DNA from: Bryoerythrophyllum caledonicum
Taxonomy: Eukaryota > Streptophyta > Bryopsida > Pottiales > Pottiaceae
Assembly (NCBI GenBank): GCA_963971425.1
Contig: OZ020514.1
Coordinates: forward strand, 14,141,218-14,205,217
DNA length: 64,000 nucleotides
Direction: 5' to 3'
Position 1 is the first letter of the stretch. Each line of letters opens with the position of its first letter. A program made the translations under genes and the position numbers. The notes below the pieces were generated by a model that searched no databases, had not been told where the DNA came from, and saw nothing but the letters and a program-made list of their open reading frames with translations. Below, one piece after another: positions 12,702 to 64,000 of this stretch.

Positions 12702-12731
12702 ATGCACAATTCAACTAATTTTGAACTATGG
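12702..12731 (+). repeat. Left terminal inverted repeat of A1
   Basis: ATGCACAATTCAACTAATTT and the next ten bases match the A2 left end (ATGCCATATTCAACTATTTC...) at most positions, and the B ends more weakly. It is preceded by CAAT (12698-12701), the possible target duplication. Confidence 0.65.
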
Positions 12732-13389
12732 ATTGAATTCTGGACTATGGACTGAAATAAAGATACGGAGATATGCTGGATAAAAGATAGTATAGCATAA
12801 AAGTCGATGAGTTTAGAGTACTTTTCAAGCATTAAATGCATCACTAATGACACGTAAGAAGGAAAAAATGGCCAGAGCAACCAAATTTGAGGTTAGACTA
12901 TCCGTGAATCCGAAACATGCAGTCGGATATCTTTGGTTGAATGTCAAAGTAGGCTACAAAAGAAGTACTGAGTCCTCAAAACAGAAATTGTTGGACATAT
13001 TGTACATCACAAGGGTGCCCATACATGAAATCACATGTGTGGTTGGGTATACTAGGACAGAGATGCCGATAGCAATTACTCACAATTGATCTATAGAAAT
13101 TCTAGTTTCAAAGAACAGTGTTGGCTAGTGAAACATGCAACCGGATATCTCCAAAAGAATTCAAGGTAAGAGTTCAGTAGTTAACCGTTTCATCATAAAA
13201 AAGTGTCATACAATAAATATAGGGTGGCCGTTGTAAACTAGCGCGTGTAATCTACGGAGAATTCGTAGAACTACTCTAGTATTAGTGCTTTACAGTTGCC
13301 CGCTACCCCTCCAATATCATGGATCCCATGTTTTAGATGATAGATTATAGCCTTCCTAGGATTCTTGAATGGATCTAGATCTGCAACAA

Positions 13390-14368
13390 CGACACATTAA
13401 GGCCACAAATAATGCCTTGTTCTACCATTAAATGAGGCTTTTCTAATAAGGTAGAGAAAGCTAACATAGCTAGGCTTTCAAGTGTATTTGCTAGTACAGA
13501 GAAAAATAATATATGATAAGATGTCTGGGGGCAATAACACTTTGACTGCCTCCAGGAGCCTATCTGGACGCATAGAGCACCAAATCCCGACAATGAAATA
13601 CTGCAGTAGTACTCGAATAACATCTATCGAGTCATCAAAGGAAAGCACTAGCGCGGAGCCGGATTAGGCCGAGTCTAGGATCTCGTCGGAGTAGAGAGGA
13701 CCGTGGAGAGATATGACTATGACCTGCAAATTACAAGGCACGACCATTGAATTAGAAATTGAACATGGGAATGAAGAGAAAATAAGGTGTGAGGTTGCCA
13801 AATGAAAGGAAATCGACCGGAGATCTCCAGGTGCCCCTCCCAAATAAACGTTCTGCAATCTAAAAGGTCACAAGAATATTGAATAGTGTTCAAGGAACTG
13901 AAGTATGAAGTTTAAGGTCGAGACACAAATAATAACAATTCAAAGGAATGACCTCGATAAATTACATTATTCACAAAAACATTTATCTTCAAAATTGAAA
14001 GGTCAATATCTCATAGACATTCTTGAATTGACATTTACAAAGCATATTTTTGTAAAATATCAAGTTTATTTCAATATTCTAAGGCGCCGGAATTTTGCCC
14101 GCCACCACGGCAAGGGTCATAGGGGTGGATTTGTCTACTGCTCCATAGCCATGCTTCAAAAGATTCCATCTAACATAGTCGGGAACATCTTCATCTAACG
14201 CTAGCAGTCCGGCAAGCCATAGGCGAAAACGTTGAGACCAAGAAGGTGTCATTCAAAAGCCCAGTCCAAGATGGCGGATGAATTGCGCTGAAGGGATTGT
14301 TGAGGACGTTCTTTAGTAAAGTATCGTCCACTGACAAGACATCCTTGGGAGACCTCGGTATTGCCTTG
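13390..14368 (-). pseudogene. H gene of A1, second half: end of HAD domain 1, and HAD domain 2
   Basis: From 14368 leftward the frame reads SVDDTLLKNVL, then FSAIHPPSW (HAD motif IV region of domain 1), then shifts frame before the stop near 14083. After an intron with acceptor TTTGCAG, the domain 2 exon starts near 13722: VIVISLHGPLYSDE, then FIVGIWCSMRPDRLLEAV, then VVVADLDPFKNP. In domain 2 the catalytic motif I Asp positions are absent, so it would be a pseudo-phosphatase. TAG codons break it. Its first half lies at 34989-36375, beyond element B. Confidence 0.75.
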
Positions 14369-14396
14369 ATGCCACATTTAAGTAAATTTGGACTTT
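14365..14396 (+). repeat. CTTG target duplication and left inverted repeat of element B
   Basis: CTTG at 14365-14368 followed by ATGCCACATTTAAGTAAAT and nine more bases. The right end at 34961-34988 is its inverse with two mismatches in 28, followed by CTTG at 34989-34992. The intact H gene in A2 (near 49995) has CTTG once and no insert. Confidence 0.88.
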
Positions 14397-15672
14397 TGAA
14401 AGTCTAGATTGGTCAAAGTCCAGATTTATTCAAGGAAAATCTTACGAAATATGATATAGAGGTGCTTCGTAAGATCCTATGATCTAACAAAGATGGTCAA
14501 TAAATTTTGAAAGTTAGAAGCTTCACAAGAGAAACAATTGAAAAATTATAGGAATGTGTGATGTAGCAAGTGACCTTGCAAGGATAGGAGAATCATAGTA
14601 GAAGTGACCTTGCATCACACGATAGGAAGATCCTACCATCACCATTTATTAGTAGTAGTAGAAGTGAGAAGAATAATGTATTTATTGCATCTACAGTGAG
14701 AAACAAACGTAGCATGTAAGCGGTTCCAGTAGAAACAGAAGTATTTGAGGAGAGGTAATACATTCTAAAGAAATTATGACATCGTCTAGGTTTATGTATA
14801 AAAAATATTAAACATGTGGGCATCTTACGTAGGCAACTAGAAGAAGCAGGACCGTAGGATCCTGCTATCTTGCTAGAAGAGTTTTAAGAAAATTACTAAA
14901 TAATAGTACTGTATAAATTGCATCAAATGGTAGGAAAGTAACGTAGCATACTAGCAGTTAACGGTAGGATCAAAAGTATCTGAAGAGAGCTCATACATTG
15001 TCGACAATTAATGATAACGCCGAATTGAATGCTTTATAATTAAAATAGATGTAAATATTTATCATAGACAACAAGAAGCAGCAGAATCGAAGGATCCTAC
15101 TATCTCGCTGGAAGAGTTCAAGAAAAAGATGAGTGATGAAAAAATTGTGCTATCTTGCTGGAAAACTTCTACGACATCATAAGTCATATTGTGGAAAGTC
15201 ATAGGTGGATTTCGAGGAGGTCCAGGTCACAAGATCCTACAATATTGATAGAGAACCCTAATACCATCAAGGGTCCACCACATTTGCAGCTTCAAGGTTA
15301 GCCAATGCTGCAATTCGATCCCTCTTTGGAATCGTCCGAGTCTTAGGGTTTGTTTTACTTGATGCCGAGGCAAATACGACAACATTAACATGAACTTGAA
15401 GTAGACGTTGTTTTTCCGGAACCAACGTTGCTGCCTAACAATCCTCATACTTCTTCTTGTGGTTTTTGAATTGATTTCTTGGCTCCCAGAATTGAATAAT
15501 AAACTTCCCATATTCCACATGCCCTTGTAATCCTGAAAATTCACCTTCGCAAAACACCCAAGACTCACACTAGTCTCTCCATGATTCTAAATTCTTCCCG
15601 GGATGGTCTAGCGTAAACCGTTAAGTAGTTTGTCTTTAATTGTAGGTCAAAAAGCTATCTTTCTATTGAATT
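14397..15672. other. Subterminal region of B with palindromes, no supported gene
   Basis: Variants of the B palindrome occur near 14480, 14625, 14855, 14965, 15090 and 15230. A 113-codon ORF on the - strand (15568-15227) has no recognisable motif and no counterpart seen in A1 or A2. Confidence 0.5.
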
Positions 15673-16410
15673 ACTTAAGTTTATGCACTCATTTTTAGGA
15701 AATTAAGCCTTAAAACATATCACACTTAACATTCCACTCTTAAGGTATTAATTCCAAGGATTTAAGTGCTTAGGTAGAGCCTTGCTCCTCCAAAGAGCCT
15801 TGCTCTTGAGTTAACTATGAATATGCACGTTTGTTAGTTTCCTATACTTTTGCCATCTTCGGCTCTTGGATACTATCCATTGCACTCATGGTTGATTCCT
15901 TAATTAATTCCATTTAGAATTCCCGAACTTACCTCGTGCAATTCACTCCACTTTTCATGTACATCCACGAGTCACGTACTCACGTACTCACGTACTTATC
16001 ACAAGTGTGAGTCTCGAACACCACACAAGTTAGATTAAGCCTCTAAATATTTCTACTCTAAGTCCGGACTTAAGTCTAACCTATTTATTAGTCCTTAACA
16101 CTTAAATGCAAAAAGAGTATCTTCACTCTTATACTTGCATGACTTAAGTTCTGTAACTCATACTTAAGTCCTATCGTTTATACTTAAGTTCTTTCTCACT
16201 CTGGACTTAAGTCCTTCCTCACTCTAGACTTAAGTTTTATTACTTAGACTTAAGTTCCATTCCACTGTAGACTTAAGTTCTATCACTCGGACTTAAGTCC
16301 TATCACTTATACTTAAGTCATTTTTCACTCTAGACTTAAGTTTTCTTATTTACACATGCATAAGACTCCCGTCTTATGTCTTAATACTTAAGTTTCCACA
16401 CTTGAACTTA
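15673..16410 (+). repeat. Array of 14 ACTTAAGT palindromes
   Basis: Fourteen exact ACTTAAGT octamers, mostly 15-40 bases apart from 16066 on. Several extend to GGACTTAAGTCC, a perfect 12-mer palindrome, separated by CT-rich linkers (for example TCCTATCACT). It differs from the GATC-type palindrome of the rest of B, so this block may be a separate insertion with its own motif. Confidence 0.8.
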
Positions 16411-17434
16411 AGTCTTACATCATTTACTTATGCATTCCTCACATTAATGCATTAAGTTTCTTACTCCAAATTAATTTCTAAATGCCTTACATACACTTAG
16501 AATTATTACATTAATATTCACAATGTCACTTTGACATAGTTAGGATCTTCCCTAACTTTATCTCTTGAAGTTTTAACATTATTAAGTATTCATATTTCAC
16601 TCATATGTAATACATTAAATTTAATTCATCACACACACAATTTCATGTCACATAATTAGTTAGGATAGTATCCTAATTTTAACAATGAAGATCTAAATAA
16701 ATAATTAATGCATTTATGCATAGGAATTTATTCACAATTAATACCTCATGCATATATTTGCATTTACAAAACACAATATCAAATTTATTCAATGAAGTTC
16801 AAATATTATTGTAATTATATATATGATTCAAGTCACACACAAGACTCTACACATGCAAATTCAATAATAATTATATATTAATAATTTCACACATAACATA
16901 ATACTCTTACAACATAAGAGATTTCTTCAACTACTAGCTTTTTCACCTAAGCTAGGGCTCAGTCCAATCTTCCTCCAAGGAATTTCTATGGTAATGGCCA
17001 AGAATGCTAAAAATTCAAGCTAGTCATTCTACTCAAATCCAAGAGGCACACCTCTTGGAAAAATGGTTTTGCCTATATTTAACCATTGAGATTAATTCCA
17101 CTAAATCCTCACATCTATTCATATCTAGATATGAAAAGGCACACCCTTTCCAAAGGATGCGAGTTCAACCATTTTTCCATTAATCCTTCTATCTTAGATA
17201 TGAAGAGGTACTTTTCAATTAATTAAGTACTTAATGTAAACTTAATCATTAATTATTTAATTCTCCATATATCTACAATCCTTTTCACACTTAATTTTTT
17301 GAAAAAAGCTATTTTTAGGATTTAGGCTCTACAACCCTCATTCACAATTGACTGTTGAACATGCTCTCTCTATATTTCAGGGTGTGAAGGATGGAGTAGG
17401 ATCCATGATCCCGCTCCAACATCTCGCCATGGAT
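16411..17434. other. AT-rich noncoding sequence downstream of T of B
   Basis: No gene seen. Long runs of A/T with scattered CATATATG-like words. T coding homology resumes at about 17435. Confidence 0.5.
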
Positions 17435-20400
17435 TCAAGGCGTCCTTCGTCTCTCTTTCCTTGGGCCACAATAAAGTTCAGGTTTGTCATCTTCAGGTGT
17501 GACATCTCCACTAGTAATGAGGCACAATAGAGCTGGATCTGTGGCTCTCCAATCATGAATTGGCCAGAAGCCTTCTACCAAGGCTGTAGGAGTGGGAGGA
17601 AGAGGTTTCTCCAGTTCTGCAAGTATTCCATTCCAGTATTCGATATGAGGTGGAAAATCCTTTCGAATGCCCATATTTTCAAGCATCTCGCGTTCCCAAA
17701 ATTCTATATAACCTCAAATTTCACACTTGATGAACGACCTCTTATTAAGAGCTTTGGAAACCTTCTCTCTTGCCTTCTCTGGATTGCCTGTGGAAGAAGG
17801 AACTTCATTGCCCCACAACCGCCTGAAAGGTACAGGATTTGGGAGCATCGGTTTTCCGTCAACATCCTCCTTCCAAAGACAGATAGCAGGCTTGTCTCTG
17901 GGTAGCCGGTGCGCATGAACTGCAAGTTCCTTAAATCGCATGACGGGCCACCCTTCTTCATCTACGTAGAGTTTAAAGAGATGCATCTCTACTAAGCCAA
18001 CAAGTCTGTCAGCACCATCACAAATATAACCATGGACGAAAGATTTGAAATCAGCAACCTCTTGAACAAAATCGGGCATAAAATCCAAGTCTTGTGACTG
18101 CATGAAGGACATCATCAAATCTGCGACAATATAAGTATTCTGACTCTTCAAGGTCTTGGATAAGCGGCCTTAGTAAGCATCATTATCCTCATGCGTGTGC
18201 CCGACTGATAATAAACCAACTTGGATTTCTTCGAAAATCCTTCGATAAGTCAACATCGATAAGAACGCCATGAGAAACTAGTTCTTATTGTCCTTTGCAG
18301 AGTTGTCAAGCTGCAAATATAACTTTTTTGGAAGGGGGACGGGTACAGTCGAGTTATTCGTTACCGGAGGAAAGAGGTGAATACATCTGGACTTCCCTCT
18401 GAGCATAGCTTCAAAGAAAGAATTGGCCAATTCATGGAGAATAATTCTACCTCATTCACGAATGGGTGGTTCCTCGAGACGCCAAAGCAAACTCGCAAGG
18501 GAGGAGATAGTGTAATTAGAGTCTCCTGGCCACAAGTCAGTGGAGTAGTGAGCATAGGCACCATCTTTATGATCGTGCGTGACCATACCGGTGACGTTCA
18601 TTGGGAACTGACCCAAGGGTGATGTGAGTTTGGTAGGAACTCGCATACAAGGAATAGCTGTCTTGGCTGTATCCATTTTATCGTGGATAAAACAAAGAAT
18701 ATCGCCCTTTTGCCGCTTAGACTCCTCTCTCCAGTTATGGTATACACGCCTACACAAAGCTTGGAGGTTGCAGTGGGTTTGTCTCTGCTTCACGAACGAA
18801 TTATTTTCGGCGGAACCCTTAATTGATCTGTCGATGTACTGCGATAGAGTGTCACAGAGGGTGCACTTTGCAAATGAGCTCCCAATAAGTTTAACTACAA
18901 CATTGTTGAAGTGCTCCCTCCTCATTCTGCTAACAACGGATTGCAAAACCGCAAGCAACTTGCATTGTAGATTTGTCTACTAATGAGTCAAAATATTGAG
19001 TGCGTCAAGTGAGTGCCCAGTGAGAATTGAACTTAAATCAGATTGAGGATAACCACAGAATGGGAGGACTGTAAGATTGTAGCATACCCTTGGCGATCGT
19101 AGGATCCTACCATGAACTAGATGTACAGAGCAAAGATAGAGGGTCTTTTAGCACATTATCATAACCATGAGGTGCTTAAAGTACACGTGAATGCAGATAA
19201 GTGGTTCATGTGGTGTACTATGTAGAATAATACCTTTGTGGCGTCAGCCTGGATCTTCTTCCAACTATGTCCAGAGGACGGAAACTTTAGAGTGTCCATC
19301 CGGCCTGGTACTGTCAACCTCATCTGATTAAGCATGTGATCAGCACTCTCATTGAAAATAGCCGTAATCGTACCAAGTGCTTGCACGGTTCCAAGACGGG
19401 GTCGTTTGGCGTCTTTGTTCCCGTGCGTAGAGGAAACGATGCCCTTCTTGTACTGGTCCATATATTTGTGAAACGTTGATTTCGATATGCCATGGATTTT
19501 CTACAACGCTGTAGCGCAGATATCCTGACCTAGTAAAGTGACATACTTTTTTTTCCGATTGTTGCCTATATAGCATAATTGTCCACCCACAGACCTTGCA
19601 TAATCCCAACGTTCGTCAAAGTCCTTCAGCCAAAACTTCTGGCGAATGAAAAGGATATCCTAGGGCTTGATTAAGCGCACGCATTCGTTAGAACAACATG
19701 ATTGCAAACTCACTGCTTGAATCTCTTCCAGCATAGTCTTCTTAGCGAACGCGTTGAGCTTCTCCTCAGTCTGCTTCTTGCGACGAACTAACCAGTATGG
19801 TGCTTTTGGGCAGCTACCAAGGTGCGCATTCGCATCCGGTGCTTGAGGAAGATGATTGAAATGGTCGAGCGTATCGCTAAGACTATGTCCTTTGAATGCA
19901 CACTCGGAAATGGGCCACCTCCGATGACTCATAATGTCACTAGGATCTTCGATGAAAACGTCGAATACTATGATGCCAATGTTCCCCTCCCCCAAAGTAC
20001 TATTTTCGAATGGCTCATCCGGGTAGACACAACTAATGCGACCAGAGGCCATAAGATCCCCATCACCGTTAAAGCGCTTCACAACCTTTCCCACACACTC
20101 TGCCTGAGGTACAAAAGGAGGAGTGTTTGTCGACCTAGAAGTTTCACCTAAGTCCGAAGTTAGGACAAGGCTTGCTGTCTCCCAGAGAATTGTTCTACCA
20201 ATCGATTCAGCCAAGACAGAGATGCCCTCCTGCATTGGATGAATGAGTAGACTTTGCACCATTGCATGTATCTCAATAGGTCCAAGAAGAGTCAATTCCG
20301 CAAAGGTGAGATCAATGTTGACGCCAAGCCAACACCCAGTAGGAACGGCTTCAATGACAATGGCATGTCCAACAACGCCATGTCCGGGGTAGCAAAGTAA

Positions 20401-20508
20401 AGCACTCATGTCCGGTTGATATCGGTTACGCTCGTCGTTGGCTTCAACATCAGGGTTAACGCTCACAAAATCAGTAAACTCATCGTCCGGTCTGCAACTT
20501 GAAGACAT
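17435..20508 (-). pseudogene. T gene of element B: DUF7869-like probable DDE transposase
   Basis: ATG at 20508. Exon 1 (to about 19228) holds an N-terminal domain with WLGVNIDLTFAEL, then after a TAG a helix-turn-helix-like segment, KIHGISKSTFHKY, then THGNKDAKRPR. The last exon (about 18965 to 17435) carries FAKCTLCD, CFIHDKMDTAKTA (first Asp), LYLQLDNSAKDNKN (second Asp), SVGHTHEDNDAY (Glu), and a C-terminal part ending VEGFWPIHDW and ELYCGP. Spacing matches a DD(38)E catalytic triad. The whole frame has six nonsense codons and no frameshift. It diverges from P across the spacer, as in A1 and A2. The DUF7869 name is from memory; the transposase role is inferred. Confidence 0.8.
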
Positions 20509-20624
20509 CGAAGGCAACCGGAGAGAAAAGGATCCAATAAACCTTCAATCAACCCTGCTCTTCGTTCTCCAAATGAATAGAAAATCGTAAGAGACAAATC
20601 TACAGATCAAGCCTAATGATACTA

Positions 20625-21050
20625 GATCGTAAGATCCTACGATGAACCGTGATTTCATGCTCACCCCTGATTCCGAAGTTCTGCAATCACTGCAGAGTAT
20701 CACCAAAGCGATCGTAAGATCCTACGATTATTTGGTAACTCCTAAACGATCCAAGGCGATAGTAAGATCCTACGATCATCCGATATTATATGCAACATCC
20801 AGAGTCCTCGTTTGATCACAAACCAAAGAGATCGTAAGATCCTACGATCATTCTAAAACCCGTGTTCGATCCTCGGTGATAGTAAGATCCTACGATCTTC
20901 CAGAATACTCGGGTGCACTCAAAGCCAGTTTTCATCCACCACCAAATAGATCATAGGATCATACGATCTTAACATGACCCCTGACCAATTCTCAAGGATA
21001 GTACTATCTCACGATCATCCAATATTATCATAGGATCATCCAATATCGTA
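20625..21050. repeat. Palindrome cluster upstream of T of B
   Basis: About eight copies of the GATCGTAAGATCCTACGATC type, beginning just 5' of the T start. Starts are near 20625, 20709, 20758, 20831, 20879, 20949, 20997 and 21028, alternating roughly 50 and 75 bases apart. Both half-sites are usually present. Confidence 0.9.
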
Positions 21051-22081
21051 CAATCATCATGACTGTACGGAAAGTACATTTAAGAACACAGTAGTAGCTA
21101 CTGAACCAGTTGATTTAAGCAATGACAACAATTGTTTCTACCACAAGTATACGTAGTTTACATAATATGGTATAGACTAATTTAAAACATCAAATACTTT
21201 ACAAACCACCCCAACACTTTCACGATTAAAATTAGTTTAGAATCTATGATTCTGACTCACTTACAACAGCATCAACTCTGAAAACCACCGCGGCACTTGC
21301 ATTTCCAAAATATTTCAAAACCCCAATGCATACAAAGTGGAGGAAGGAGACTGTACCATAGATTGTGACGGAACCGAAGAGAGATGGATCAATACTGGCA
21401 GCGGGGCAGCAATGAAGCGCTCGATCGAATTGAAGGTGAAGCTCAGATTGACCTGAAGGTGAAGTTGAGATCGACGCACATGTGAAGCTCCGATCGACGT
21501 GAATGTGACACTCACATTGACGTGAAGGTTATGATGAGCTTACAGCTTAAAGCTCGCTGCCTAAGCTCGACAGAACATGACGTAGAAGAGACGAAGTAGG
21601 TGAAGCCCAAGCTCGACTAAACACAAAGACGATACCGCATTACTAACACTCTCATACTCCAAGTGTCTTCAAAACAAACACAATGCTCTCAGTTCTTGGG
21701 CAAATACAACGCTCTTAGACTCTAACTCTGCTGGAAATGAACTCATAATGCTTGAACACTAAAAGCAGAGCAACCTCTTCTTGATCTAAAGAAAGTAGGA
21801 AGTACATCAAGAACAGGTTGAATCCTTGGAGAGGTTAGAATCACAATCATTTTCAAAGATGTGGAGAGCTGTATGAGTGCCACTTCGCATGTAATTATTT
21901 CCAAGACGGAAAATGACAACAACGGAGACAAGATAAAATATATTAGTGAAATTAAGCTTGAACTATGGGAACGTCCACTGATCATGAAGAACACATGTAT
22001 TTCAGTAGTAATTATGAACTTACGACAATTCGTCATGGTTACAATCATTAACCTATTAGACTAGGTTAAAAGTTCAGAGTT
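21051..22081. other. Spacer of B, T-proximal part
   Basis: No gene supported. A run of similar words near GACGTGAAGGT is repeated at 21430-21530. Presumably the promoter or leader region of T. Confidence 0.4.
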
Positions 22082-22625
22082 CTAGGTTCAGGGTTTAGGG
22101 TACAATATTATAGACTCAAGCTTCCAGGTTTAGGGTTTTAGGTTCGGGGTCTTAGCTTCAGTGTTTGGGGTTCAGGTTTCTAGGATTAGACTTTCAGGTT
22201 TGGGGTTTTTAGCGTCAAGGTTTGGGGTTCATAATGGTTGGTTTAGGGTCCTAGATTCAAGGTTTTTGCTTCAGGGTTTAGGATCCAAAGTTTTAGGTTT
22301 AGGGTCCTAGGTTCAAGGTTTTTAGCCTCACGGTTTGGGGTTCATGGTGGTTGATTTAGGGTCCTAGGTTCAAGGTTTTTGCTTCAGGATTTAGGGTCCA
22401 AAGTTCTAGGTTTAGGGTCCTTGGTTTTAGGATTTTTGCTTCATGGTATAGGTTTAAGGTATCAATCTCAGGGTTTTAAATTCAGGATTTCAGGTTTAGA
22501 GTTTAGGCTCTACGGCATAGGGTTGAAGGTCAAGGGTCGAGGATTTAGGGTTTAGGATTCAGGTTTAGAGGTTCCACGTTTGGGATATTGGACTAAAATT
22601 CAGGGTTTAGGGCAATCCTTGAAAC
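22082..22625 (+). repeat. Degenerate telomere-like repeats in the spacer of B
   Basis: Dozens of variants of TTTAGGG/TTCAGGG/GTTCAAGG, for example AGGTTTAGGGTCCTAGG. The G-rich strand is the + strand, that is, the strand opposite T. The same array occurs in A1 and A2 with the same orientation relative to T. Confidence 0.85.
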
Positions 22626-24501: not shown

Positions 24502-24670
24502 ATGAAGGGCAACCAATTCACGAGGATGACAGGCCCATCCGGCAATGCAAGCGACTGGAGTGACCCGTAAGTTTCTATCCTTTCAATGATGATAAATTTT
24601 TCTTTCTCGCGTTCTGGTTTAGATGATTTGTAGTATCTTATGAATAATTCACAGATTTTGGTTTTCATGT

Positions 24671-24898
24671 TAGGTTTACAAGATGCGTAGTATGTTATGA
24701 ATGATTGTCAGATTCTGGTTTTCATGTTAGGTTTACAAGCTGCGTAGTATGTGATGAATGATTGTCAGATTCAGGTGTTCGAGTTAGGTTTACAAGGTGC
24801 GTAGTATGTTATGAATGATTGTCAGATTGAGGTTTTCATGTTAGGTATACAAGGTGCGTAGTATGTGCTGAATGTTTTCAGCTTTAGGTTTCAGGTAA
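24671..24898 (+). repeat. Four tandem 57-bp units in intron 1 of P of B
   Basis: Units start at 24671, 24728, 24785 and 24842 with TAGGTTTACAAG and contain GCGTAGTATGT and ATGAATGATTGTCAG. A degenerate unit precedes (about 24611) and another follows (about 25014). Confidence 0.9.
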
Positions 24899-25244
24899 AG
24901 TATGCTGGATCTGTACAATCTTTTGAATGATTTTCTACTAAGGCTTTCCATGTTCTGGTTTTCAAGCTCTGTTGAATGATGTGAATGGTATTCTAGCTTT
25001 GATACTTATACTCAGGTTTACAAGGTTTGTAGTATGTCATGAATGTCATAACACTCATCGAATTTTTCTGAATCGTATGTTAATCCCTTGTAGTATGATA
25101 TGCAATTTAGGGTTATTGTGTATAGTATGCAAACTTTTCACGATAGATAGAATGTAGATCTATTGTATAATATTTACACATGAAGTTATTATAAGTTGTA
25201 CATTAGTGCTGAAGTGCACCTGAAGTTCATACCATCGTCATGAA

Positions 25245-33700: not shown

Positions 33701-33738
33701 GATGTTGTGTATAACTCCTATCTTTCTCTATGATCACA

Positions 33739-34366: not shown

Positions 34367-34369
34367 TTG

Positions 34370-48374: not shown

Positions 48375-48404
48375 ATGCCATATTCAACTATTTCTGGACT
48401 ATGA
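48375..48404 (+). repeat. Left terminal repeat of A2
   Basis: Matches the A1 left end at most of 30 positions and the B ends at about three quarters of 28, including the outer ATGC and the inner TGGACT. Confidence 0.65.
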
Positions 48405-51354: not shown

Positions 51355-51588
51355 CGTGGCATCAGTCGTTTGCGTCACATTGACGAAATCAATGTGGAAA
51401 ACATTAAGATGCAATACAAAAGAAAATGGTATCATACACCTGGAGACTCTGGTTCAAAGTCGTCCTTGTCTACCGGGCGAACGAAAATTGAACATGGCAA
51501 TGATAAAGAAGAGTCCTCAAGCATGGAGGGCATTCAAATCGTATGAACATCCAGAGATCTCCGGGTCATGTAGTTTCCGTAGGCGTCA

Positions 51589-54500
51589 TACCTCAACGGT
51601 GTAGTTCATCCTCGACATTGCCCGTGCTTGAACCCCAGCGCCAGGGGTCGACCCAGTGATGTCAGTCTCCTCTGCCTCCTCGGCAACAACGTCGGTAACG
51701 TCGGCTAAGATATTCAAGTGGTACTTAAATATTTGTTCAGCGCAGGATTCGGCCTTCGGTTTGGCATCTTTGCTGTTCACAATCTTGAGGACCCGCGCGT
51801 CGTGAGTCTGCAAAAACAAACCTGAGTAAGGCGTCATCCAAAACACATAACTGTATTCGGACCGGAAAACTTTGACGTTGGATTGCTTGGGAAGGATGTC
51901 CTGCTTACCAAGCCGAGGTATGTTAAATGTGATCCTCCATGAACATTGACGACGACCATACCCTCTCTGATGTATCCCGTGAACAGCAAATCGAGGATGG
52001 AGATCCTCAGCTGTGGAACACCGGTTTGCTTCCAGCGCTAGATGGTTTCTTGATGTTGAGCGGCTGAAAAGAAGGCCGGGATTTTTTTGGGATGTCCTTT
52101 GAAGAGCCTCTTGAATGACTGAGTAGGCGTTTCGCTCGAATCGTATTCATACAGGAATACGTAGTATATTGTCTCCTCGACCCCGATTACTGGAATCGGA
52201 AATCCATCACTTGGGTGAGGGAAGTAGTAGACCACATGCGTTGCCCACAATTTCACCTTGCCTCTGGACTCTCTCTACCAAAGAGTGATGTACCTCTTCA
52301 ATTCAACGCATCCCGCGACGTCGGTAATAAGAACTGACAATGATCTGACCCTCGTCCGCCCGTCCTTCGTGTCCACTCCGAGATGGTCAAAAATGGTTAT
52401 GAAGTCCAACGCATCCAGGACCTGTGCACGGCATATGTCGTCTTTCACGCGATAGAGGAAGAGGAAGTAAAAGTGAGGGTCTGTGACGTTACGCCACTGC
52501 TGAATGTTCGGCATGATAAGTACTTCGGTGATCTTGCCCCCTCTGTCAGGCATAACCCTACATGTTTATTTGGAGTCGAACAGGGACGTGTCATCCGTGG
52601 ATGTGGCCTTGGCAGAATCTTCAATGATGTGTTGACTCCAAATGGACACAAAGACGTCTGGGGTGGGGTCGGTTTCCTTCTTAATCGCCTTCAGTCGACC
52701 CTCAAGCCAAGCTTTACCCTTGGCACAGTGATTAGCGGTGTCCACCCAGGACTCGAGCTGGACCCTTCCAATATTCCTCTCTTCGGCAAATGCATCCCAC
52801 TGCTCCTTCGTGTATAGGACGAAGTCTGCAGACTTCGAAGGAAGGGGGTGCGAGTTGTAATTTAACATCAGTTCATTCTTCATTGCCCGGATTCTCTTCT
52901 CCCTGTTCGCCGCGTTTTTGAGAGTCTCCGCCTGCCCTTTCATAGTACCTTGATTCGCCGCTTTGGAGGACTTAACACAAACCTTCTTCGCAAGCACTAA
53001 GTCCGCGAGGTAGTCTAGGTCTTCAGCGCGCATTTTGTAAAGTGGCTTGAAGTCATTCTGCACCAGAGGTTTCCGCTTTAGCTTAGCTGGGTCCCCCATC
53101 TTCACTTTGGAGTCTGGTAGGAGTCCAGTGACGAACATCCTATCAATTTGGATCCACTTTTGGACCACCGCGTCATCCATCTCGAATAGGAGAGGGACCT
53201 TCGCGTCTTTGGGGTCTCTTTTACCGAGGTGGGTGAAAACCGTTGGCACCCCTTGCCGTTGGAACGTCTGCAATTAGAAAAATTACAGGGTGTTAGCAGC
53301 AGGAGATCTCCAGTGATTGGTTTGGTTGCTGTGAAGAATGAACGCATCGACGAAATTAAAATCTATTCAGGTTGAAAATGTAAGCTTACCCAGAATGCGT
53401 CAGATTGTGGATGACCATATAGTTGGGGTAGGTTTTCCGAACTCAAACCACTTCACTCGGCACATTTGAAACTACTCTGTGAAACTCTGCTCCTTCCGCG
53501 GACCCGCCAGATCTTGGTTGAGAGCGTGCGAGAGTTGTAGCAGGGTCATGTCTTTGGGGTCCGGTTTTGTCCAAACCGGGATGATGGGAAAGTGGGAGAT
53601 CTCTTCGAGCGTCCACGTTGATGGCAATTTGTGTGACAAAACCATGTGCGCCTCCACAGTATGTTGACCACCAATAATGTAAAAGTGTGTCGAGTCCCTT
53701 AGGCACTCCTCTTTTGTCGGCTTCGTCGCGAAGAACTCCACCTTACTTCCTTCAGGTTTCTTCTTCAGTGGCAGGACTCGAATGTGAATCTCAAGTGCCG
53801 TGGCCTTCGAGGACACGCAAACTACGTTGATAATTCCTTCAAGCCGTTCTTTCTGGATGCCCCTGTATACTTATCCTCAGGGAGGGCCCGATGCAGGTTA
53901 TTGAAATGAACGAGCTTCACGATATCCTTCTTCGTGACAAGGTCTTCTACTGTTAAAGGCTTATTCTTCAGTATGTTAACGTTTTGAACACGTCGTCCAG
54001 AACCTTGCCAATTGCTTCCACTTCAGTCCGCGTCATTTTGGTGAGGTCAGCCTGTGTGAAGTTCAGGCACTGTTCGATTGCGAGGCCAAGCTCATCGGCC
54101 TTCGCTTTCTTCCCATTTTCCGCCCGCGACGAGGAACTCGGGGTCGAAGTCTTTAAAGTGGTCTTGCGCTTTCTTGCCGGGCTCGAAGCTGGTATTAAAG
54201 AAAGATTGGGAGTTGGGTCCGGAACGCGCTTTCGGGACTTTTCTTATGCTTCTGCCATCCACTTCCACTGCTCATTAATGTACTCCGGCATCCAAATATC
54301 ACCCGTGGGAGGGGCATATAAAAAGCTCTCATTTTGGCAGGTCTCCACCATCGCATTCGGAATCTTAGATGATTCTTGGATGAAGCCGTATATGAGAGGC
54401 TCGGTAGATGAGTCCACGTTCTCATGGACAACAACGAGACAGACCTCGTCATCAAGACCCTGCATCTCCAGAACCTGGAGGCCAATGTCGGGGTGTCCCC

Positions 54501-55743
54501 GTTTGCCAATCCGAAGCTAAGGGACGAATTCCTAGGCTCCTTCAGGGGTTTTAATGAGCTTGATGCCCCACTCGGTCATGCTCCTTCGGCATATGTATAC
54601 GTAGCCGACATTGTGAATCCCTCTGTAGAAAAACTCAGGGAGCCAAAACTCTACAAACGCCCCAAGTTTCCTGGGACAACATTCAGTCGGAAGTGTGGAT
54701 GTCCACGAATCCCTGCAAGATGATTTTGAAAAAACACACAGGCAGTTTGAAATCACTGCAATTATCCGGTCTTCAATGTGAAGTTCTATTTCATTTGAGC
54801 CTATCGCGAAAGTAGCCGGAGATCTCCGGCTGATTTGTGGAAGTCGAGTGCATCCGTCCAGGAACGAATCCTAGCTTCTCAGACGGATCCATTTCTGTCC
54901 TGAACCGGAGATCTCCGGTTGATCACCCCAAAGTAGAGGTTCCCGATATTCACATGTCCATCAACGCATAACTCCACTGCTTCAAAACATCCGGAGATCT
55001 CCGGCTATTTTCGAGAATTACTAACGCCTGTATGGCTTTTTAGATTCATTAGACCGCGACATCATCTGGAGATCTCCGGCTGAATATTGGAACTCCGTAT
55101 TCAATTTGGGATACAGCCGGAGATCTCTGGCTGCAGCAAGTACAACTTTACATAGCATTAATCGCATCAGATCATCACGCGTTTATTCACAATCATTCAG
55201 AGAGAATTTTGACATATAACTCAGGAAGTTTGACATTCTCACAAAGCAAGTTACATAATAGAGAACACAAAGAAATGTATCAAAAGCTCACACAATTCTT
55301 TCAAAACTCGACCTACATACAAGAAATAGAATTCAAAAATGTTTCGATGGAACGCCAAATTTGACGATTCTACATGGATTACTCTTTTCACATTGAATCG
55401 AACCGGACTTGAAAGACTCCATATGGACAAACACATTCAAACGTTCATAGAATACCTAAATCACACGCATATACATGAATAGATATACAATTATGTTCAC
55501 AGGACAACAAAAAACCAATCGGCTATAGCCAAACAGACTTCTGAATTCTAGTACGCAATTTCTGAGGTTTCTCTTAATCATTCAAGTGTTCGCCCGCTCG
55601 GTAACAATAGAACTAATTCGAAACTCACTCAAATAATGGAACCCCACCCGGTCGCTTGCAATGAGCACAAACAGTTCAATATTGTGGACTTACTGGTTTC
55701 CATGCCACGAAGTCTTACTCGACGTCCCTGCTGTAGTCGCCAT
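51589..55743 (-). pseudogene. P gene of A2: ParB/Srx-like multi-exon gene, best A copy
   Basis: Exon 1 (55743-55694) reads MATTAGTSSKTSWHGN, phase 2. Exon 2 (54717 to about 53394) has DSWTSTLPTECCPRKLGAF, WGIKLIKTPEGA, a basic Ser-rich region, then ALEIHIRVLPLKKKPEG, HFYIIGGQHTVEAHMVL (GGQH 53661-53672) and LQLSHALNQDLAG. The order I(H)xR...GGQHxxxA...LNxDL fits a ParB/Srx N-domain. Exon 3 (53272-51912) has PLVQNDFKPLYKMRAEDL, a Lys-rich helix, VVYYFPHPSDGFP and SFKRLFKGHPKK. Exon 4 (about 51811-51589) is THDARVLKIVNSK. Stops at about 54534, 54246, 52565, 52274 and 52040, and one frame change near 53985. Confidence 0.78.
54816..55130. repeat. Palindrome cluster in intron 1 of P of A2
   Basis: Five copies, three of them perfect CCGGAGATCTCCGG (54816, 54905 and 54991) and two with one change (55065 and 55117), so 52-89 bases apart. 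Confidence 0.93.
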
Positions 55744-58289
55744 TTCCCAACCTCCTCCAGGAACCGCTCTGGATCAAAGCGTATACACAGCTCTGTAATA
55801 CATCAACATTCAACAACTTAGAACTATAAACTCTACAATTACTCAGATGCCCTAGAATGTAAGGTCGAGTTCTTATTGACAAGAATTCGGCGGAATAAAT
55901 TTCAACACTGCATAAAATACTCATTTACAGCCCTTCTAAACTGAATGTACAAAACACCTGAACCCTTTACCCTAAACTCACAATTCCGCTCAAACGATTA
56001 AAAACATCCATACTATTCGAGTCTCTCAAACCCTAATGAAGCTTACCGAACCCTACACCTGCTCCAGTGATGATTCTAAGCAGTCTTGAGAAAATTTGAC
56101 TGCAATAACACTGAAAGCCATTTTTGAGACGTTACATACCTCTTTACTTGCCAAATCGGCGCACATGTACGTCGTGGTCGTTCGTGTCGATGCCACCCTC
56201 AACCGCAGCGTTGTTTGCTCTTTGTTGGTAAACCTAGGCGCTCTTCAAATTTCTTCCTAATTCAATCGCTCTGTTTCAGTCCTGCTCTCCGACCTTGAGT
56301 CTATATCCAGAGAACAACCTCTCGACGGTACGCTAAAAGTCCCTCACTTAAATCAACACTCACCTCGCACACCAACGGCCTCTCACAGCGCATACCAACC
56401 TAACCTAATGCGTCGACGTCCACTCCGCGAACCAAGAAAGATAACCCCTCCCACCACTTCCGCTCACTACCTTCGACATTACAAAGACAAAATCATAAAA
56501 AACAAGAAATGGTTGATGCTTGGAGTTCTCATAATCCAAAGAGGACAAGCTGGACGGCTCAAGGGTGTGACGGCTCATGATGACAGTGGGTGAAGTAAAA
56601 AATCAGCTGAAATCACGTACATCTACAACGTGTACATTTCACAATCATGACATTGTCAATGTCGTGAGCATGCGTGACAAGACATATTGATACCCGGTTT
56701 CATGGGTATTACATATGCCTAGAATAGATACTCGGGTTCACCGGGTATTAGAGTAATCATTATACTTGAATTTAAAATGACATAAGTGAAAATGCTTAAT
56801 CTCCCTTTCCGTTACTCCCCCTCCCTTCTTTCCCTCACTTATTTTTCTTATTTTTGTTTTACTCTCCCCTCCTTTTCCATCTCCATCTCTTTTTTAATCT
56901 TGATTCTGATATTTTTTAGACTCCCCGTGATTTCAATAATAACACATTCTTAAATTAACTTACTACTCTAAAAAAATTCCCTTATTCTCCCTCTCTTACT
57001 CTTCCTCTCCTTTATTCTCCCTCCTCATTTCTTTTTTACATTTGATTTTCTTTTTAGACTCCCCTTTTTACATATTCTAAAAATATAAACTACTCTAAAA
57101 ATAAATTCTTCAAGTCTCTCCCTCTCTTACTCTCCCTCTCTTCCTTAATGTCCGTCCTTTGCTGTCCCTCCTACTTGTTTTTTACTTATTTTAGTTTTAC
57201 TCTCCCCTCCTTCTCCATCTCCATCTCTATTCTACTTTTGAATTTTAATTTTTTGGATTTCCCCTTATTTCAATAAATTCACATTCTCAAAATAATTAAC
57301 TACTCTAAAAAGCAATCCCGCACTCTTCCTCGCTTACTCTCCCTATCCCTTACTCTCCCTCCCTTACTCTCCCTCCCTTACTCTCCCTATCCCTTACTCT
57401 CCCTCCCTTACTCTCCCTCCCTTACTCTCCCTCTCTTCCCTACTCTCCCTCCCCATCCCTTTTTACATTTGATTTTCTTTTTAGATTCCCTTTTTTATAT
57501 ATTCTAAAAATATAGACTACTCTAAAAATAAATCCCTCAAGTCTCTCCCTCTCTTACTCTCCCTCTCTTCCTTACTCCCCCTCCCTTACTCTCCCTCCTT
57601 CTTGTTTTTTATTTATTTTAGTTTTACTCTCGCCTCCTTCTCAATCTCCATCCTTTGTTAATAATATTCAACCATTGTAATAGTATGTTTTTTTCTATTC
57701 TATTCTATTACATTATTAAAATTAATGCATAGGTTTCAAAGATATATTTATATTTTATGTAGATTGTTGTTACCTTTTTTCTTAAATATTTTGTGATATA
57801 AAAACTACATTAAAATGGTTGAACTATTGCGTTGCAAACCAAGCGCCAACTCCTAGTCATACTACTAAAATCATAATTTGCGCAGTAAACCACGGAGTGA
57901 ACTATTGCGTAGTCAACCATGCAGTGAACTACAAAAACGCTACAGTCAACCGCGTTGTCAACAATATAGTGAACCATTCCACCTTTCATTTTTTAATACT
58001 TTTTAATATTAAAAATACATAACAATGGTTGGGCTAATGCATTGCAAAGCAAGCGCCAACAACTAGTCTACTCTAAAATTAAATCCATTACCCTCCCTCT
58101 CTTCCTTATTCTCCCTCTAACTACATTATAATGTATCAAAATAAATAGTAATTGTTCAATTCTAGCTTAATTTCCTTACACTCCATTGTATTCAATTTTT
58201 TTTTAAAGTTATAGTTATCGATAAATTTAAGGTTATAGTTCATACTTTTAAAATAATTTTAACTTATAGATTTATAGGTCATATAAGCC
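55744..58289. other. Spacer of A2, with pyrimidine-rich repeats
   Basis: No gene supported. The conserved hairpin sequence lies at 56646-56666. From about 56790 to 57640 the + strand is strongly C/T-rich; at 57320-57440 TTACTCTCCCTCCC-type units are in tandem, and the segment TTTTTACATTTGATTTTCTT recurs at about 57034 and 57461. This tract is absent from A1 at the equivalent place. Confidence 0.6.
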
Positions 58290-58480
58290 CTCGACCTTCA
58301 TGAACCCAGAACCTTACACGGTGAACCGTGAACCGTGAACCCTTAATTTTCAACCCCAAACCGTGAACTAGGAACCCTGAACCCTAAACCTAAACCGTGA
58401 ACCCTAAATCCTGAACCCTGAATCCTAAACCCTAAAACCGTGAACCGTGAACCCTAAACCCTAAACCCTAAACCCTGATG
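58290..58480 (-). repeat. Degenerate telomere-like repeats in the spacer of A2
   Basis: GTGAACCCTAAACCCTAAAC-type words, several consecutive perfect CCCTAAA units near 58448-58470. C-rich on the T coding strand. Confidence 0.9.
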
Positions 58481-59947
58481 CACAATCCAGCCTGAATACG
58501 GAAGCTGTACCCGAATTCATAGGACCGGGTTGTTGTACTTCTAAAAGCATCTGCTCAGTTATTTGTGCACGTATCTTCTCAAGCATCCATATAACTTCTA
58601 TCGATCTACAAAGTATTGGAGATTATTCTAATTGGTAACGAATGCCGACGTTCTACTTGAGTCTTGTAATGCTAGATGAACAATACTAGTAGGCAGTAGA
58701 AGGCCGACTCCTTTCTTTGGGTCGGGTATAATTTAATTCACAAAGGTGAGTACGAGAAGTCCAATACGATTACATTATACTGTGATTTAGTCTAAGACGT
58801 GATACGGCCCTAGTATATTTAAAGATACATCATGGGGCATATTTCATCTTCCGTTTTCTAATTTGCAGCACTCTGGGAACTAGATGATATCCTTACAATA
58901 CGGTCATCCCAAGAGTACGAGCCTTTCATTATCATGAGCGGAATGTGGCCTTGGTCGTGGGCACGTCAAAAAATGCGCACAATCATGATGGTGTATAGTA
59001 CTTAATTTGAAGGGGCATGCATGCCCAAGATTCGTTTCAAATTTGAGCGCTTGAATTTTCCCTCCAGGAGCTGATGGAAAGGTTGAAAAGAGTATCCTTC
59101 AAATCAGCTCTCATCATTTTTTGCTCTAGAGGTTTGAGATACCGTGGGAGCTGAGCGAGTTAGTGAAAGTGTTCGCGTGCGCGACATTGTGCTAGATAAC
59201 TGTAGGGAAACGATTCGACATTATTCCAGGAATGTTAAATATGTTTCCTCGTAAAATTTCGTATCCGCTGTCTATTTGTGAGGACTGGTGAAGATTGTGT
59301 TGCATTTTGCCCTTTGAGTCGATCGGGAGCTGTCGTGTAGTGATTCTGTAACTAATTCGTCTCCGGAGATACAGTCATAGCCCGGAAGCAGTAAATTAAT
59401 TCGACTCAAGAATTAAGATGACGTAATATCTTGGCGTGTGAATCCGAACTGTTAACCGGGTTTTGCAACTGAATCACACCGCCATACCCGCGAATATTCT
59501 GTACGGCTCCTGTTTCGATCAAGACAACAAAAGCCAACCGGAGATCTCTGGCTGTTCATGCCGTGCTAATCTGGATTCTGCCAAGATCGCTTGCTAACCA
59601 CGATTGCTACCCTTGAATCTAGTGGCTGTCATATTCTTCGAATGCAGGATCCCCAGAGATCTCCGGCTACTCTTGTGTGAAATGTTCATAGAAAGTTTCC
59701 TCGCCAGCCTGGTTTTGATTAACCGGAGATCTTTGGTTAGATACGAATGAAACTTTTAGCTCCACCTTTCTCTTCCTTACTTAAACAAGAAGTCGTTGTT
59801 GTTGATCATTCTCCACTCAACCGGAGATCTCTGGCTAGCCCAACCGACGATATTGACGTTGGTCATCCAGTTCAATTCTACATGCACTCAATTTCTCATT
59901 GAGGGCATCAGCCACCAACCGAACATCCAATGATGCAGCAAGGGAGT
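58481..59947. other. T-proximal spacer of A2 with palindrome cluster
   Basis: Aligns with the A1 equivalent. Palindromes at about 59539, 59651, 59721 and 59819, all within 410 bases of the T start. No coding frame is conserved with A1. Confidence 0.7.
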
Positions 59948-62900
59948 ATGTCTGACTCACATTGGTGGGAGAGTGACTCAGAAGAACTACACAGAAGAAG
60001 ATGATCCATCCCAAGAGTCTACTGGAAGGTCGGAGGTTCTGTGGTCAGGAATGTCCGTGAACCTTATGAGGCCAGGTTCAGGCAAAATTGGAGAAGCGTC
60101 CATTGTTGAGGTTCATCCCATGGGACAATGGCTTGGAGTTGACATACCAGTCGATTCCAGTGAGTTCGTATTACTTAGACCAACGGCCATAACGTCCACG
60201 GCAGAAGAATTACCACTCATTCCCTTGCAACGCGAATACGATTCACTTGTTCATACACTTCGAAGGACCGTCCTGTAGAAAGGGCGGATGTCATGATTCC
60301 AACCAGAGATCTCTAGTCCGACGACTCCACATTCATACCACAAGAGCGATAGGTTGGACTTGAAGTGCAGAGGTTGGACGGAAATGGGTTGGTGCACTGC
60401 TCTGGGAGAATCATGGCCGCGTTACCATCGGATCATTTCCGAAGTGGATGCTTGGGAGAAGATAATATTGGTGTTACTGTCCTCGACGTTTTTGTGGGGG
60501 ACACGAAGAGAATTATGAGTCATGAATCGTAGCCCATTCTTGAATATTGTTTTCCTTCCGGGCGGTCTTTGAAAAGCACAATTGATCATTTTGCATCCCT
60601 GCCTTTAGAGCCTGATTCTGATGCTCATTTAGGCGGTCGTACGAAGGAGCCTTACCGCTTCATTTCCCGACAGCAAGACCTTAAGAAGAAGGAGTCCTTG
60701 TACAGTGTACACCAAGAGGACTATGGATGACGAAATTCGCAAAGTCAGCTCGGAAAGGTGCTGTCCCAAACGATGCTGCCAATATTTTCAACAATCCTAG
60801 ACTCTTTCTATTAGACATAAATTCTATGACAAATCCTTTATAGACAGAAAGGAGTATGCGATCTCGGTAGGCGGGCAGTTCCACTCTATTTATGGGGACT
60901 AGAAGAGAAAGTACGTCACGCTCTTGGGAACGAAAGTCTGCTCCATTGCATGGTACACGATCCATGGAGTTCGGAAGTCCACGTTTCACACGTACATCGG
61001 ACATTTCAATAGAGGAATCATCAATGCAACTCACAGTAACAAGAGCATCAAGCGCCCACGGCTTGCCACTATACAAGCGATGGTTTCAAACGTCCATTAT
61101 TAATGACAATGCGGATGAAATGCCTCACCAAATGCGGAGTGTCGGGAATGGTCGGATTGACACTCTCAAGTATCTTCCTGCGGGAAACAACTGGAAGCAA
61201 ATTCGAGCCAGCGTCAATGATGTACGTTAGACCCTCCATATTGCTATGGATTTGTAATCTCCTTCCTTAGTCGACCGAAGTCCTAGTTTCAGAACCGGAG
61301 ATCTCCGGCTGGGTCAGCGTTGACATGCATTGACCTTCAATTGATTAACTCTGTATTCTGCACTATCTGTTGGATTGTTCTTCTAAAATTCTCCTCTTAC
61401 TAGGTTATTATTTCACTTTGCAGACAAACGACTCCTACGGTCTCCCTCTTGTAAGTCAATCCACAGTTAGCAGGGTTAGAAAGGAATTCTTCGGGAATGT
61501 TGCTATTAAGCCATCTGGTAGCACCTTTGCAAAATGCAGTACTTGCGATGAGTTCAATCAATTCTTACTGACGACTCCAAAGGGAACGCCCGCATACGAG
61601 CTATTCTATAGCAACTGGCAGGCTCACTTGAATCACCAACAATCATGACGGAAGCTTTACGTGACATGGAGAGAGGAGTCGAAGCCGAAGCCGTTGACCT
61701 TTCTTTGTGTCATTCACGACAAGATGGACACTGCGAAGACGGCCCTTCCACGGATGTGGAGGACTACTAAGGGGACATCTGGTCTCGGACAGCTTTCCAT
61801 GAATGTCACCGGAATTGTGGCACACGGTCATGTCGACGGAGCGTATCCTTACTATGCTCCTTCTTTATGGCCTGGAGATTCGAACGCCACCATATCCTCT
61901 TTGGCAAAACTTTTTAGGCGGCTTGAGGGAGCACCATTACATGAGACACGCGCGCTCTTTGAGCACCCACCTCGAAACTCGATGTTCACGGCGTTGATGA
62001 GGGAAAAGAGCAGGTGCATCAACGCTTTAGAGCCCGTGGACCCGAGTGCTTTTAAAGGATCGAAATCGTTGCCCCCGAAATTATTTCTGCAGCTCGACAA
62101 CTCAGCAAAGGACAACAAGAACCAATACTTGATGGCATTATTATCACTACTAACTGCTCGAGGTGTTTTCAAGGAGATTCAAGTTGGGTTCTTGGTGGTC
62201 GGACATACGCATGAAGATATTGATGCTTACTTTAATCATCTATCGAAAGAACTGAAGAAAAGCAATACATATATTCTAGCGGATCTCATGAAGGCGTTCA
62301 TGAAGTCACAAAAATTAGCCTTCATGCCCAAAGTTATCCCAGAGGTGGCCGACTTTAAATCGTACGTCGATGGCTACCTATGCACCAGGGCGGCACGTCT
62401 CGTGGGAATAAATGATATGCATCTTTTCAAGTTCTACGTTGACAATGACGGTGTTCCGGTCATGAAGTTCAAGAAATCTGCCGTTGATGCAAAGTGGTTA
62501 TCCATGAACAGAGAGCCGATAAACCTCTGGAAGGTAGATGACTGCGGACGCCCCATGCTTCCAACAGGGTCTTCCAAGCCCATTTCTTTCAAGCCCATAT
62601 GGGGTAACGAGGAGCAGAACCCGGTCGGAAACCAAGATGTTGCCAGAGACAAGGCCAGAAAAGCGACGGAGAACAAAAACTTCATAAAGACGGGGCTTTG
62701 GAAGTACATGGACTACTGGGCGTCCGGAATGTCTAAGTGCGTAGGGTATGCAGACTCCATTCGCCCATACCTGTACTACTGGAAGGACGTCAACGACGAG
62801 CTTCAAAGGCCACTTCCTCATACGCCCTCCAAACTCAAAGAGGGATTCTGGCATGACCATGATTCCAGAGGCCCTCATGAAGGAGGTGAAAATCCACTAG

Positions 62901-63361
62901 GATCGCTTCCACAACCATTGGATGTCACTCCCAAAGATGAGGTTCTCGAGCCTTACTGCGGACCCGCCAATGAAGCCCCAATGTCCACTTTTAATCCTTG
63001 GCATGACATTCGTCATGGGTCTTGGGTTTTAGTAAGACCTAGTGATCCAAACATCTATCATGTCTGGCAGGGTAGAACAGTTTCGGACGTCGTCAGGGAT
63101 GAGGGTAATGTCAACCACGGAAAATTCCTTGTTAAGTATTGGGAGCCTGATAATAAGCAGAAGAATTTGAAGAGGAAGTACCAGGACTGTTGGGAAGCCA
63201 CTTGGATTCCGGACCAAGAAAAGCATGTATGGTGTCATGTTAGTTCTGTGTTGTTTGCGACTTGGTCAAGCAAAGTTAACCAACTTACGAGGTCCATTCC
63301 ATGTAAAATGAAGGAAGCAAGGCTTGTGAACTTAGAGAAAGCAAATGCCGTTGATCCCTGA
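59948..63361 (+). pseudogene. T gene of A2: DUF7869-like probable DDE transposase, near-complete
   Basis: ATG at 59948 with an early frameshift against A1. Exon 1 carries WLGVDIPVDSSEFVLL and, after frame changes, GVTVLDVFVGD. Exon 2 has GVRKSTFHTY and ends SVND at donor 61222. After a 202-base intron, exon 3 (61424-63361) is open except for one TGA at 61646, where A1 has TGT (Cys). It has FAKCSTCDEF, CVIHDKMDTAKTA (Asp codon 61718), LFLQLDNSAKDNKN (Asp 62096), VVGHTHEDIDAYF (Glu 62213, Asp 62222) and a C-terminal barrel-like module with FLVKYWEPDNK and WEATWIPDQ. The 38-residue gap between second Asp and Glu fits RNase H-fold transposases. Longest open frame in the window (566 codons). Confidence 0.85.
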
Positions 63362-64000
63362 TATGGTGATCAGTCTCAATATCTTAAATTCTGTTGTGTG
63401 AAATTCTGTTTGTGGAAAATCTTGAGAGTCTCTACATCCTCACGGAAGAGCACCGGAGATCTCCGGCTGTGAAGACGATTATTATCTGGTCCCGAGTTTG
63501 ACATCCCTCCTATCAACTCTTGCCAGTCATCGTGAAGAGAATCGGATTTGTGTTCTCCCATTCACTATTATTAGGATACATAGAGAATTGACAGAATCAC
63601 TATTGACTGGTTTATGCCACCGGAATATTTTCAGACCGGCATGTCTCTCAAAAAGCTTACCGGAGATCTCTGGGTATGGAAGTCATATTTCGTGGACGGA
63701 AGGATGTTCGTGTATTGTCATGTTCAAGTCGGTGAGATCTACCCGGAGATCTTCGGATAGGAGATTCACATCCACCATTCTTAACAATGGGGTCCACATT
63801 TCCCAATTTTGAGCGTACCTAGGTGTTCTGAAGAGTATTGTATCATATCCGAAGATCTTCATTGACTACGATACTGCAATTTATCTCTCGATGGAACTTG
63901 TTTCAAAATATCAGAGACCTTTTGGACATTCTCCTAGCTGGTTCTTTCTTAGATTTATGACATGCTACTGCCTAAATGAAAATGGGCAGTCAATTACACA
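63362..64000. other. Right subterminal region of A2
   Basis: No gene. Palindromes at about 63452 (perfect), 63661, 63742 and 63849. It aligns with 47300-48110 of A1; the terminal repeat is not reached. Confidence 0.7.

Follow-up and report, generated by a model that had tools for sequence, protein, structure and literature searches.

Palindrome arrays in large DUF7869 transposons of the moss Bryoerythrophyllum caledonicum

Three nested transposons in the window

We analysed a window of 64,000 nt from the moss Bryoerythrophyllum caledonicum (contig OZ020514.1, here called C1, positions 14141218-14205217; genome 437 Mb). Self-comparison of the window recovered three related DNA transposons, A1, A2 and B, as an earlier note on this DNA had claimed. 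The elements carry genes for a transposase with a DUF7869 domain (T), an orphan protein (P) and two NIF/FCP1-like HAD proteins (H1 and H2), and short palindromes are dispersed along them (Table 1). In A, the genes H2, H1 and P follow one another on one strand with T on the other, and B has the same order, inverted; the common gene order and the divergent orientation of T and P described in that note are therefore both seen. Introns occupy corresponding places in the compared elements.

Because CTTG flanks B on both sides (14365-14368 and 34989-34992), forming a 4-bp duplication, and because A2 contains an uninterrupted counterpart of the insertion site near 49986-49992, B is nested in the H1 gene of A1, which is thus a single copy split in two. 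The ends of B form an inverted match of 29 bp with 93% identity. A2 is placed within the right arm of A1, with the junction at 48374/48375. The right end of A is absent from the window for both A copies and was located in another copy, approximately 1.1 kb past the point where A1 and A2 meet. Identity between A1 and A2 is 76-78% over the three longest matches and rises to 86% within part of T; the long matches between A2 and a complete copy, e1, are 85-90% identical. The genes read in all three window copies contain stops or frameshifts.

Table 1. Elements, genes and palindrome arrays in the 64,000-nt window.
Feature	Position	Strand	Description
A1 left segment	12702..14368	+	ATGC start; carries H2 and 3' part of H1; 77.5% to A2 48382-49992; left end also matches e1
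A1 right segment	34989..48374	+	Remaining H1, P on -, T on +, right arm to A2 junction
B element	14369..34988	-	20,620 bp; both ends in window; T on -, P/H1/H2 on +
A2 element	48375..64000	+	ATGC start; reaches window edge; right end beyond 64000
T (A2), last large exon, DUF7869	61649..63361	+	Pfam PF25273 5.5e-44; earlier exons about 59900-61600
T (B), broken	17373..20508 (approximate)	-	tblastx match to A2 T; PF25273 2.4e-05 on 18452-18976, 24.5 bits, below cut-off 26
T (A1), broken	44706..47130 (approximate)	+	Match to A2 and e1
P (A2), broken	51586..54680 (approximate)	-	GGQH motif in the N-terminal exon; VNxxGG motif in the central and C-terminal part; orphan family
P (B), broken	25686..28850 (approximate)	+	Orphan family
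P (A1), broken	36600..39560 (approximate)	-	Match to A2 P
H1 (A2)	49701..51291	-	N part and NIF/FCP1-like HAD domain, motif I D-x-N-G; PF03031 6.1e-10 on 49701-50249, 39.5 bits
H2 (A2)	48900..49520	-	HAD-like, without motif I aspartate; matches B H2 (33878-34033, tblastx); no Pfam match on 49111-49551
H1 (B)	29595..31483	+	N part; HAD domain with D-x-N-G at 31028
H2 (B)	33734..34366	+	NIF-like, motif I Asp to Ser; PF03031 2e-4, 21.5 bits, just below cut-off 21.8
A2 palindromes	48596..63756		20 dispersed CCGGAGATCTCCGG-type sites, 3 mismatches allowed; clusters ahead of P and T, further sites in introns
B palindromes	14465..34915		37 dispersed GATCGTAGGATCCTACGATC-type sites, 6 mismatches allowed; two overlapping pairs with a spacing of 8 bp

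Element ends and genome-wide linkage of T and P

The complete copy e1 measures 16,949 bp, has ATGC...GCAT ends and is flanked by a duplicated ATTT. Ten further P/T pairs, all with P on the minus strand, were picked from the genome-wide lists described below; their ends were predicted from the gene positions, and 801 bp were taken for each. Both ATGC...GCAT ends lay within about 30 bp of the prediction in all ten, as expected from the ATGC-starting inverted repeats that the earlier note had placed around such pairs. In nine of them a 4-bp duplication was exact, each at a target of its own, and in the tenth it matched in 3 of 4 positions. TGGACT-type terminal and subterminal repeats are common to the ends of A and B, although the palindromes of A and B differ. 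At its right end (locus L062), e1 is adjoined by a longer perfect palindrome, ATTTCTGGACTTTGCAAAGTCCAGAAAT, which holds the end-repeat motif twice. We read these elements as large (17-21 kb) DNA transposons with terminal inverted repeats, and they appear to be autonomous. An origin as a retroelement or virus was rejected, as no such domain was present in the scanned A and B open frames (the scan was not exhaustive), and the ends and duplications are of the transposon type.

Genome-wide searches with T and P were evaluated on the best 76-150 places out of 822-4147 candidates (A2 P, best 150 of 864; A2 T, best 76 of 4147; B P, best 150 of 822; B T, best 150 of 2277). For 62 of the 76 listed A-type T genes, the window's own copy included, a listed P lies within 25 kb, compared with approximately 1.3 expected by chance, and all 62 pairs are divergent and 8.1-18.3 kb apart. 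In the B-type search, a listed T was found within 35 kb of 92 of the 150 P places, 86 of them divergent and six not; the chance figure of 3.6 presumes even density and would be nearer 10, by our estimate, given the crowding of elements on C1. At least three P genes of the B-type list appear as two pieces. Chance co-occurrence of T and P is ruled out by these counts.

The unit is therefore real and abundant. The earlier note had held that T, P and H travel together as one mobile unit with common termini. For T and P this is borne out by the linkage and the element ends, whereas H was tallied at A1, A2, B, e1 and one further locus (L206) only, where it was seen beside P/T each time. A 479-residue open frame is present in many of the listed A-type P places, and because of such open frames and the intact ends the A family is probably recent.

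Further groups of P lie near 50%, 47% and 42% identity to B, and one copy of each was sampled as families C, D and E. In the exon that carries the GGQH motif, identities are 48-62% among B to E and 35-40% between A and these four. A listed T, divergent from P, lies at 11.8, 9.1 and 22.2 kb in the copies sampled for C, D and E, respectively.

C1 makes up 65 of the 437 Mb, which gives an expected share of 15% of the elements. Of the listed places, it holds 59 of 150 for A-type P (p 3e-13) and 28 of 76 for A-type T; for B-type P and T the counts are 89 and 90, each out of 150. C1, where P/T elements crowd in this way, might be a sex chromosome or one that does not recombine.

Palindrome arrays and their placement

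The most unusual part of these elements, which makes the unit more interesting than first stated, is a set of palindromes of about 20 bp, mostly centred on GATC, with some sites of family C centred on ATAT. The A version, CCGGAGATCTCCGG, occurs 2718 times exactly in the genome versus three times for a reversed control. In e1 it was found at 15 exact sites and at 23 sites with up to three mismatches (Markov mean 0.5); at the same tolerance, A1 contains 19 sites, B none and the 12.7-kb left flank of the window two. The 37 sites of GATCGTAGGATCCTACGATC in B compare with a Markov mean of 0.4, and for its 12-bp core with three mismatches the count was 45 versus 8. They cluster upstream of T (20625-21045), P (25245-25593) and H2 (33524-33697) as well as in the P introns.

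To compare families, we used 10-kb stretches around P from an additional B copy and from a single copy of each of the families C, D and E, with e1 representing A, and scanned each stretch for its own version with up to five mismatches over 20 bp. The scan yielded 22, 22, 19, 13 and 14 sites for A, B, C, D and E, respectively, in stretches of 10-17 kb with Markov means of 0-0.2. The C version was scanned as GATAGGAAGATCTTCCTATC and refined to GATCGGAAGATCTTCCGATC; the D and E versions are GACCGGAGGATCCTCCGGTC and TATCGTAGGATCCTACGATA. When the versions were exchanged, those of C, D and E matched the B stretch 11, 5 and 20 times, and the B version matched the stretches of C, D and E 3, 11 and 15 times. 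The A version matched no other family's stretch, and no other version matched A. The versions are thus related, and they number four (A, B/E, C and D) instead of being five independent motifs. The left 12.7 kb of the window gave a single match, to the C version, in the five-version scan. In family D (locus L205, 4214-4609), the sites ahead of P stand at intervals of about 66 bp (or 132 bp), which may point to growth of the array by duplication.

The sites are concentrated before genes, as judged from approximate gene starts and coding intervals. Of the 23 e1 sites, 12 are no more than 500 bp ahead of a gene start; five gene starts were used, and these upstream regions make up 15% of the element (p 3e-5). 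The corresponding figures for B are 20 of 37 sites with four gene starts (10% of the element; p 2e-11), and none of these sites is upstream of H1. Only 2 of the 23 e1 sites and none of the 37 B sites fall in coding sequence. P intron 1 contains sites in all five sampled families, and P intron 2 does so in B, C, D and E (introns were placed by eye from protein matches). Across 28 A copies, three sites of the P locus deviate from the consensus at 0.9% of positions (10/1092), versus 2.6% for other non-coding and 1.8% for coding sequence.

We consider it somewhat more probable than otherwise that an element-encoded DNA-binding protein, most likely P, binds these palindromes along the element, while T moves the element by cut-and-paste. 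An unlikely alternative is that the palindromes are sites of a host factor, either a transcription factor or the silencing machinery, which the elements exploit or suffer. Placement in promoters is typical of transcription-factor sites, and the B, D and E versions are near enough to one another to cross-match, but a single host protein is hard to reconcile with the lack of any match to the A version in the stretches of the other four families. In addition, the 50 sites listed out of the 2718 A sites fall into four clusters, all of which coincide with P or T copies of the lists.

The same placement bears on a further reading, which we regard as improbable, namely that these are ordinary Sola-type transposons with passive passenger genes whose palindromes are by-products of repeat turnover. 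In the consulted parts of the published descriptions, Sola elements have 4-bp duplications, a DDD/DDE transposase and termini that vary strongly; they are present in Physcomitrella, and some are longer than 15 kb (PMC10741241, PMC9033089). Giant Sola-1 elements are described from Ectocarpus (PMC12477816). The duplications, the variable termini and the occurrence in a moss fit our elements, which weakens the earlier note's claim that no described transposon superfamily matches them; Sola (Sola1) would be the likeliest home for T, as judged from these descriptions. Sola2 elements with 4-bp duplications can carry Fanzor1 as an extra gene (PMC3627910), but these partial descriptions mention neither the P/H1/H2 set nor palindrome arrays. 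Duplications of similar length are also given for AcademX (3-4 bp) and Ginger1 (4 bp) in the part of a further source that we consulted (PMC10045372). Against passive passengers, the linkage and divergence of P and T are kept across several P families, sites are depleted in coding sequence and enriched upstream of genes in two families with different motifs, and they recur in P intron 1 of every sampled family.

Encoded proteins and a possible mechanism

The assignment of T to DUF7869 was confirmed by Pfam, and its proposed role as a transposase gains support from structure prediction, in which modelled residues 1-224 match DDE transposases by their RNase-H-like catalytic fold. In an alignment of 51 T sequences, many of them fragmentary, H186, T187 and D190 are invariant and E189 and D192 nearly so, with the consensus motifs HD.MD and QLDNS. 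No relatives of T were found in viral contigs or in phage records, and the name DUF7869 was not found in the literature searched; the elements described here would give this domain a role.

A second DUF7869 population consists of single open frames of about 1066-1090 residues, several of which score identically and so are probably recent copies. Only 8 of the 150 listed best DUF7869 matches lie on C1. No P was found within 25 kb of the 60 matches checked out of 150 listed, in a comparison with 20 of the 150 A-type and 101 of the 150 B-type P places.

Symmetry, conservation and placement mark the palindromes as probable protein sites. T itself is a candidate, since the palindromes could be its internal sites, an extended form of the subterminal repeats bound by TnpA in En/Spm; we regard this as doubtful, though less so than the two readings discussed above. 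Large plant transposons use repeated subterminal sites, and e1 has sites near both of its ends (222, 394, 16572 and 16809). However, the palindromes fill promoters and introns across the whole element, and A and B share TGGACT-type end repeats despite their different palindromes, which makes these repeats better candidates for T sites. Furthermore, 30 loci with a distant T (L001-L030, 107.5 kb in total) gave no match to any of the five versions, and a repeated palindromic 10-mer was present in just one of them (L008, twice). The loci are short stretches with coding sequence at their centre, but an e1 window of the same kind holds five sites. Their T proteins differ too, being 22-30% identical to A2 T.

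P is the preferred binder because the motifs occur where P occurs and because none of the 60 checked DUF7869 matches lies near a listed P. No significant sequence match to P was found in Pfam, NCBIfam or the PDB. The earlier note had called it ParB-like on a short motif, a label that was not established and should be held back. A search of PHROGs returned ParB at E 0.04 only, over 26 residues. One of the seven P exon proteins matched a PmgC-like head morphogenesis protein at E 0.0057, which was not taken as significant; the structure model of the N-terminal part was of low confidence (pLDDT 34). A motif scan of 120 viral stretches (2712 open frames) yielded a single ParB-type protein and no protein with methyltransferase motifs. 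Alignment of P with that phage ParB-type protein by hhalign had a probability of 2.6% over 21 columns outside the GGQH motif, and its score of 22.0 exceeded all 150 negatives (best 20.5). The A palindrome occurred once per viral contig among those listed, which is uninformative. A degenerate DNA methyltransferase is a possible origin of the C-terminal half of P, an impression given by its VNxGG motif that no search supported.

The FCP1-like HAD assignment was upheld by Pfam, with the correction that each element carries two NIF-like genes instead of one; H1 of A1 also scored above the cut-off of 21.8 (23.5 bits). Catalytic motif I of NIF/FCP1-like HAD phosphatases is DxDx. It reads D-x-N-G in H1 of A1, A2, B and e1, and its aspartate is absent from H2 of A2, B and e1. 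H1 is a possible phosphatase, and H2 would be a pseudo-phosphatase. H1 had no match among PDB sequences up to E 0.1.

Because of the ends, the duplications and the fold, we propose that T would bind the ends and move the element by cut-and-paste with a 4-bp stagger. The palindromes would be bound along the element by a dimer of an element-encoded protein, most likely P, which might coordinate the element's genes or coat and mark the element, and H1 and H2 might adjust phosphoproteins of host transcription or chromatin in the element's favour. We suggest only tentatively that these elements form a transposon lineage with its own DNA-tagging system, in which P would recognise a GATC-cored palindrome of about 20 bp before most element genes and in introns. 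The families with the A, B/E, C and D versions would have shifted the flanking letters, each set addressing mainly itself, and the C-terminal half of P might be a former methylase turned into a parS-like coat or a mark of self and non-self.

Cut-and-paste transposons are mostly short and carry one or two genes; here, several genes stay together in a unit of 17-21 kb across diverged families, and operator-like sites are distributed along its length. En/Spm (CACTA) elements are likewise large terminal-inverted-repeat elements with repeated short sites and an accessory DNA-binding protein (putative here), TnpA. They differ by their CACTA termini and 3-bp duplication, compared with ATGC...GCAT ends and 4 bp here, and our sites are spread over the element and its introns and not confined to the ends. 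Bacterial ParB-parS partition systems resemble ours in that short palindromes lie beside the gene of a protein, as they do beside P, whose GGQH motif resembles the ParB/Srx motif, in five families. They differ in that no statistical sequence or structural link of P to ParB was found and in that many sites are spread over 17-21 kb of a eukaryotic transposon here. KDZ transposons have another transposase, as far as the name indicates. A literature search of titles and abstract openings found no description of such an element. As a natural system, the unit lends itself to studies of self-recognition among the copies of a transposon, of the coordination of its genes and of its possible resistance to silencing, and it raises the question of why such elements crowd on one chromosome.

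A search of Rfam gave no match. Downstream of T in e1 (15921-16382; loci L061-L062) lies an acidic open frame of 154 residues that may be a fifth gene. The left flank of the window (1-12700) contains scattered open frames (for example, 6162-6581 on the minus strand, 139 residues), with no convincing Pfam match among the five scanned, and a 93-bp direct duplication with 97% identity (9188-9280 and 9364-9456). Between P and T, degenerate 7-bp repeats of the CCGTGAACCCTAAACC type, which resemble plant telomeres, occupy 43155-43420 in A1 and 58284-58500 in A2, and related repeats lie at 22072-22465 in B. A2 also contains pyrimidine-rich tandem repeats of the CTCTCCCTCCCTTA type with a strong strand skew between these two genes, at 56859-57652.
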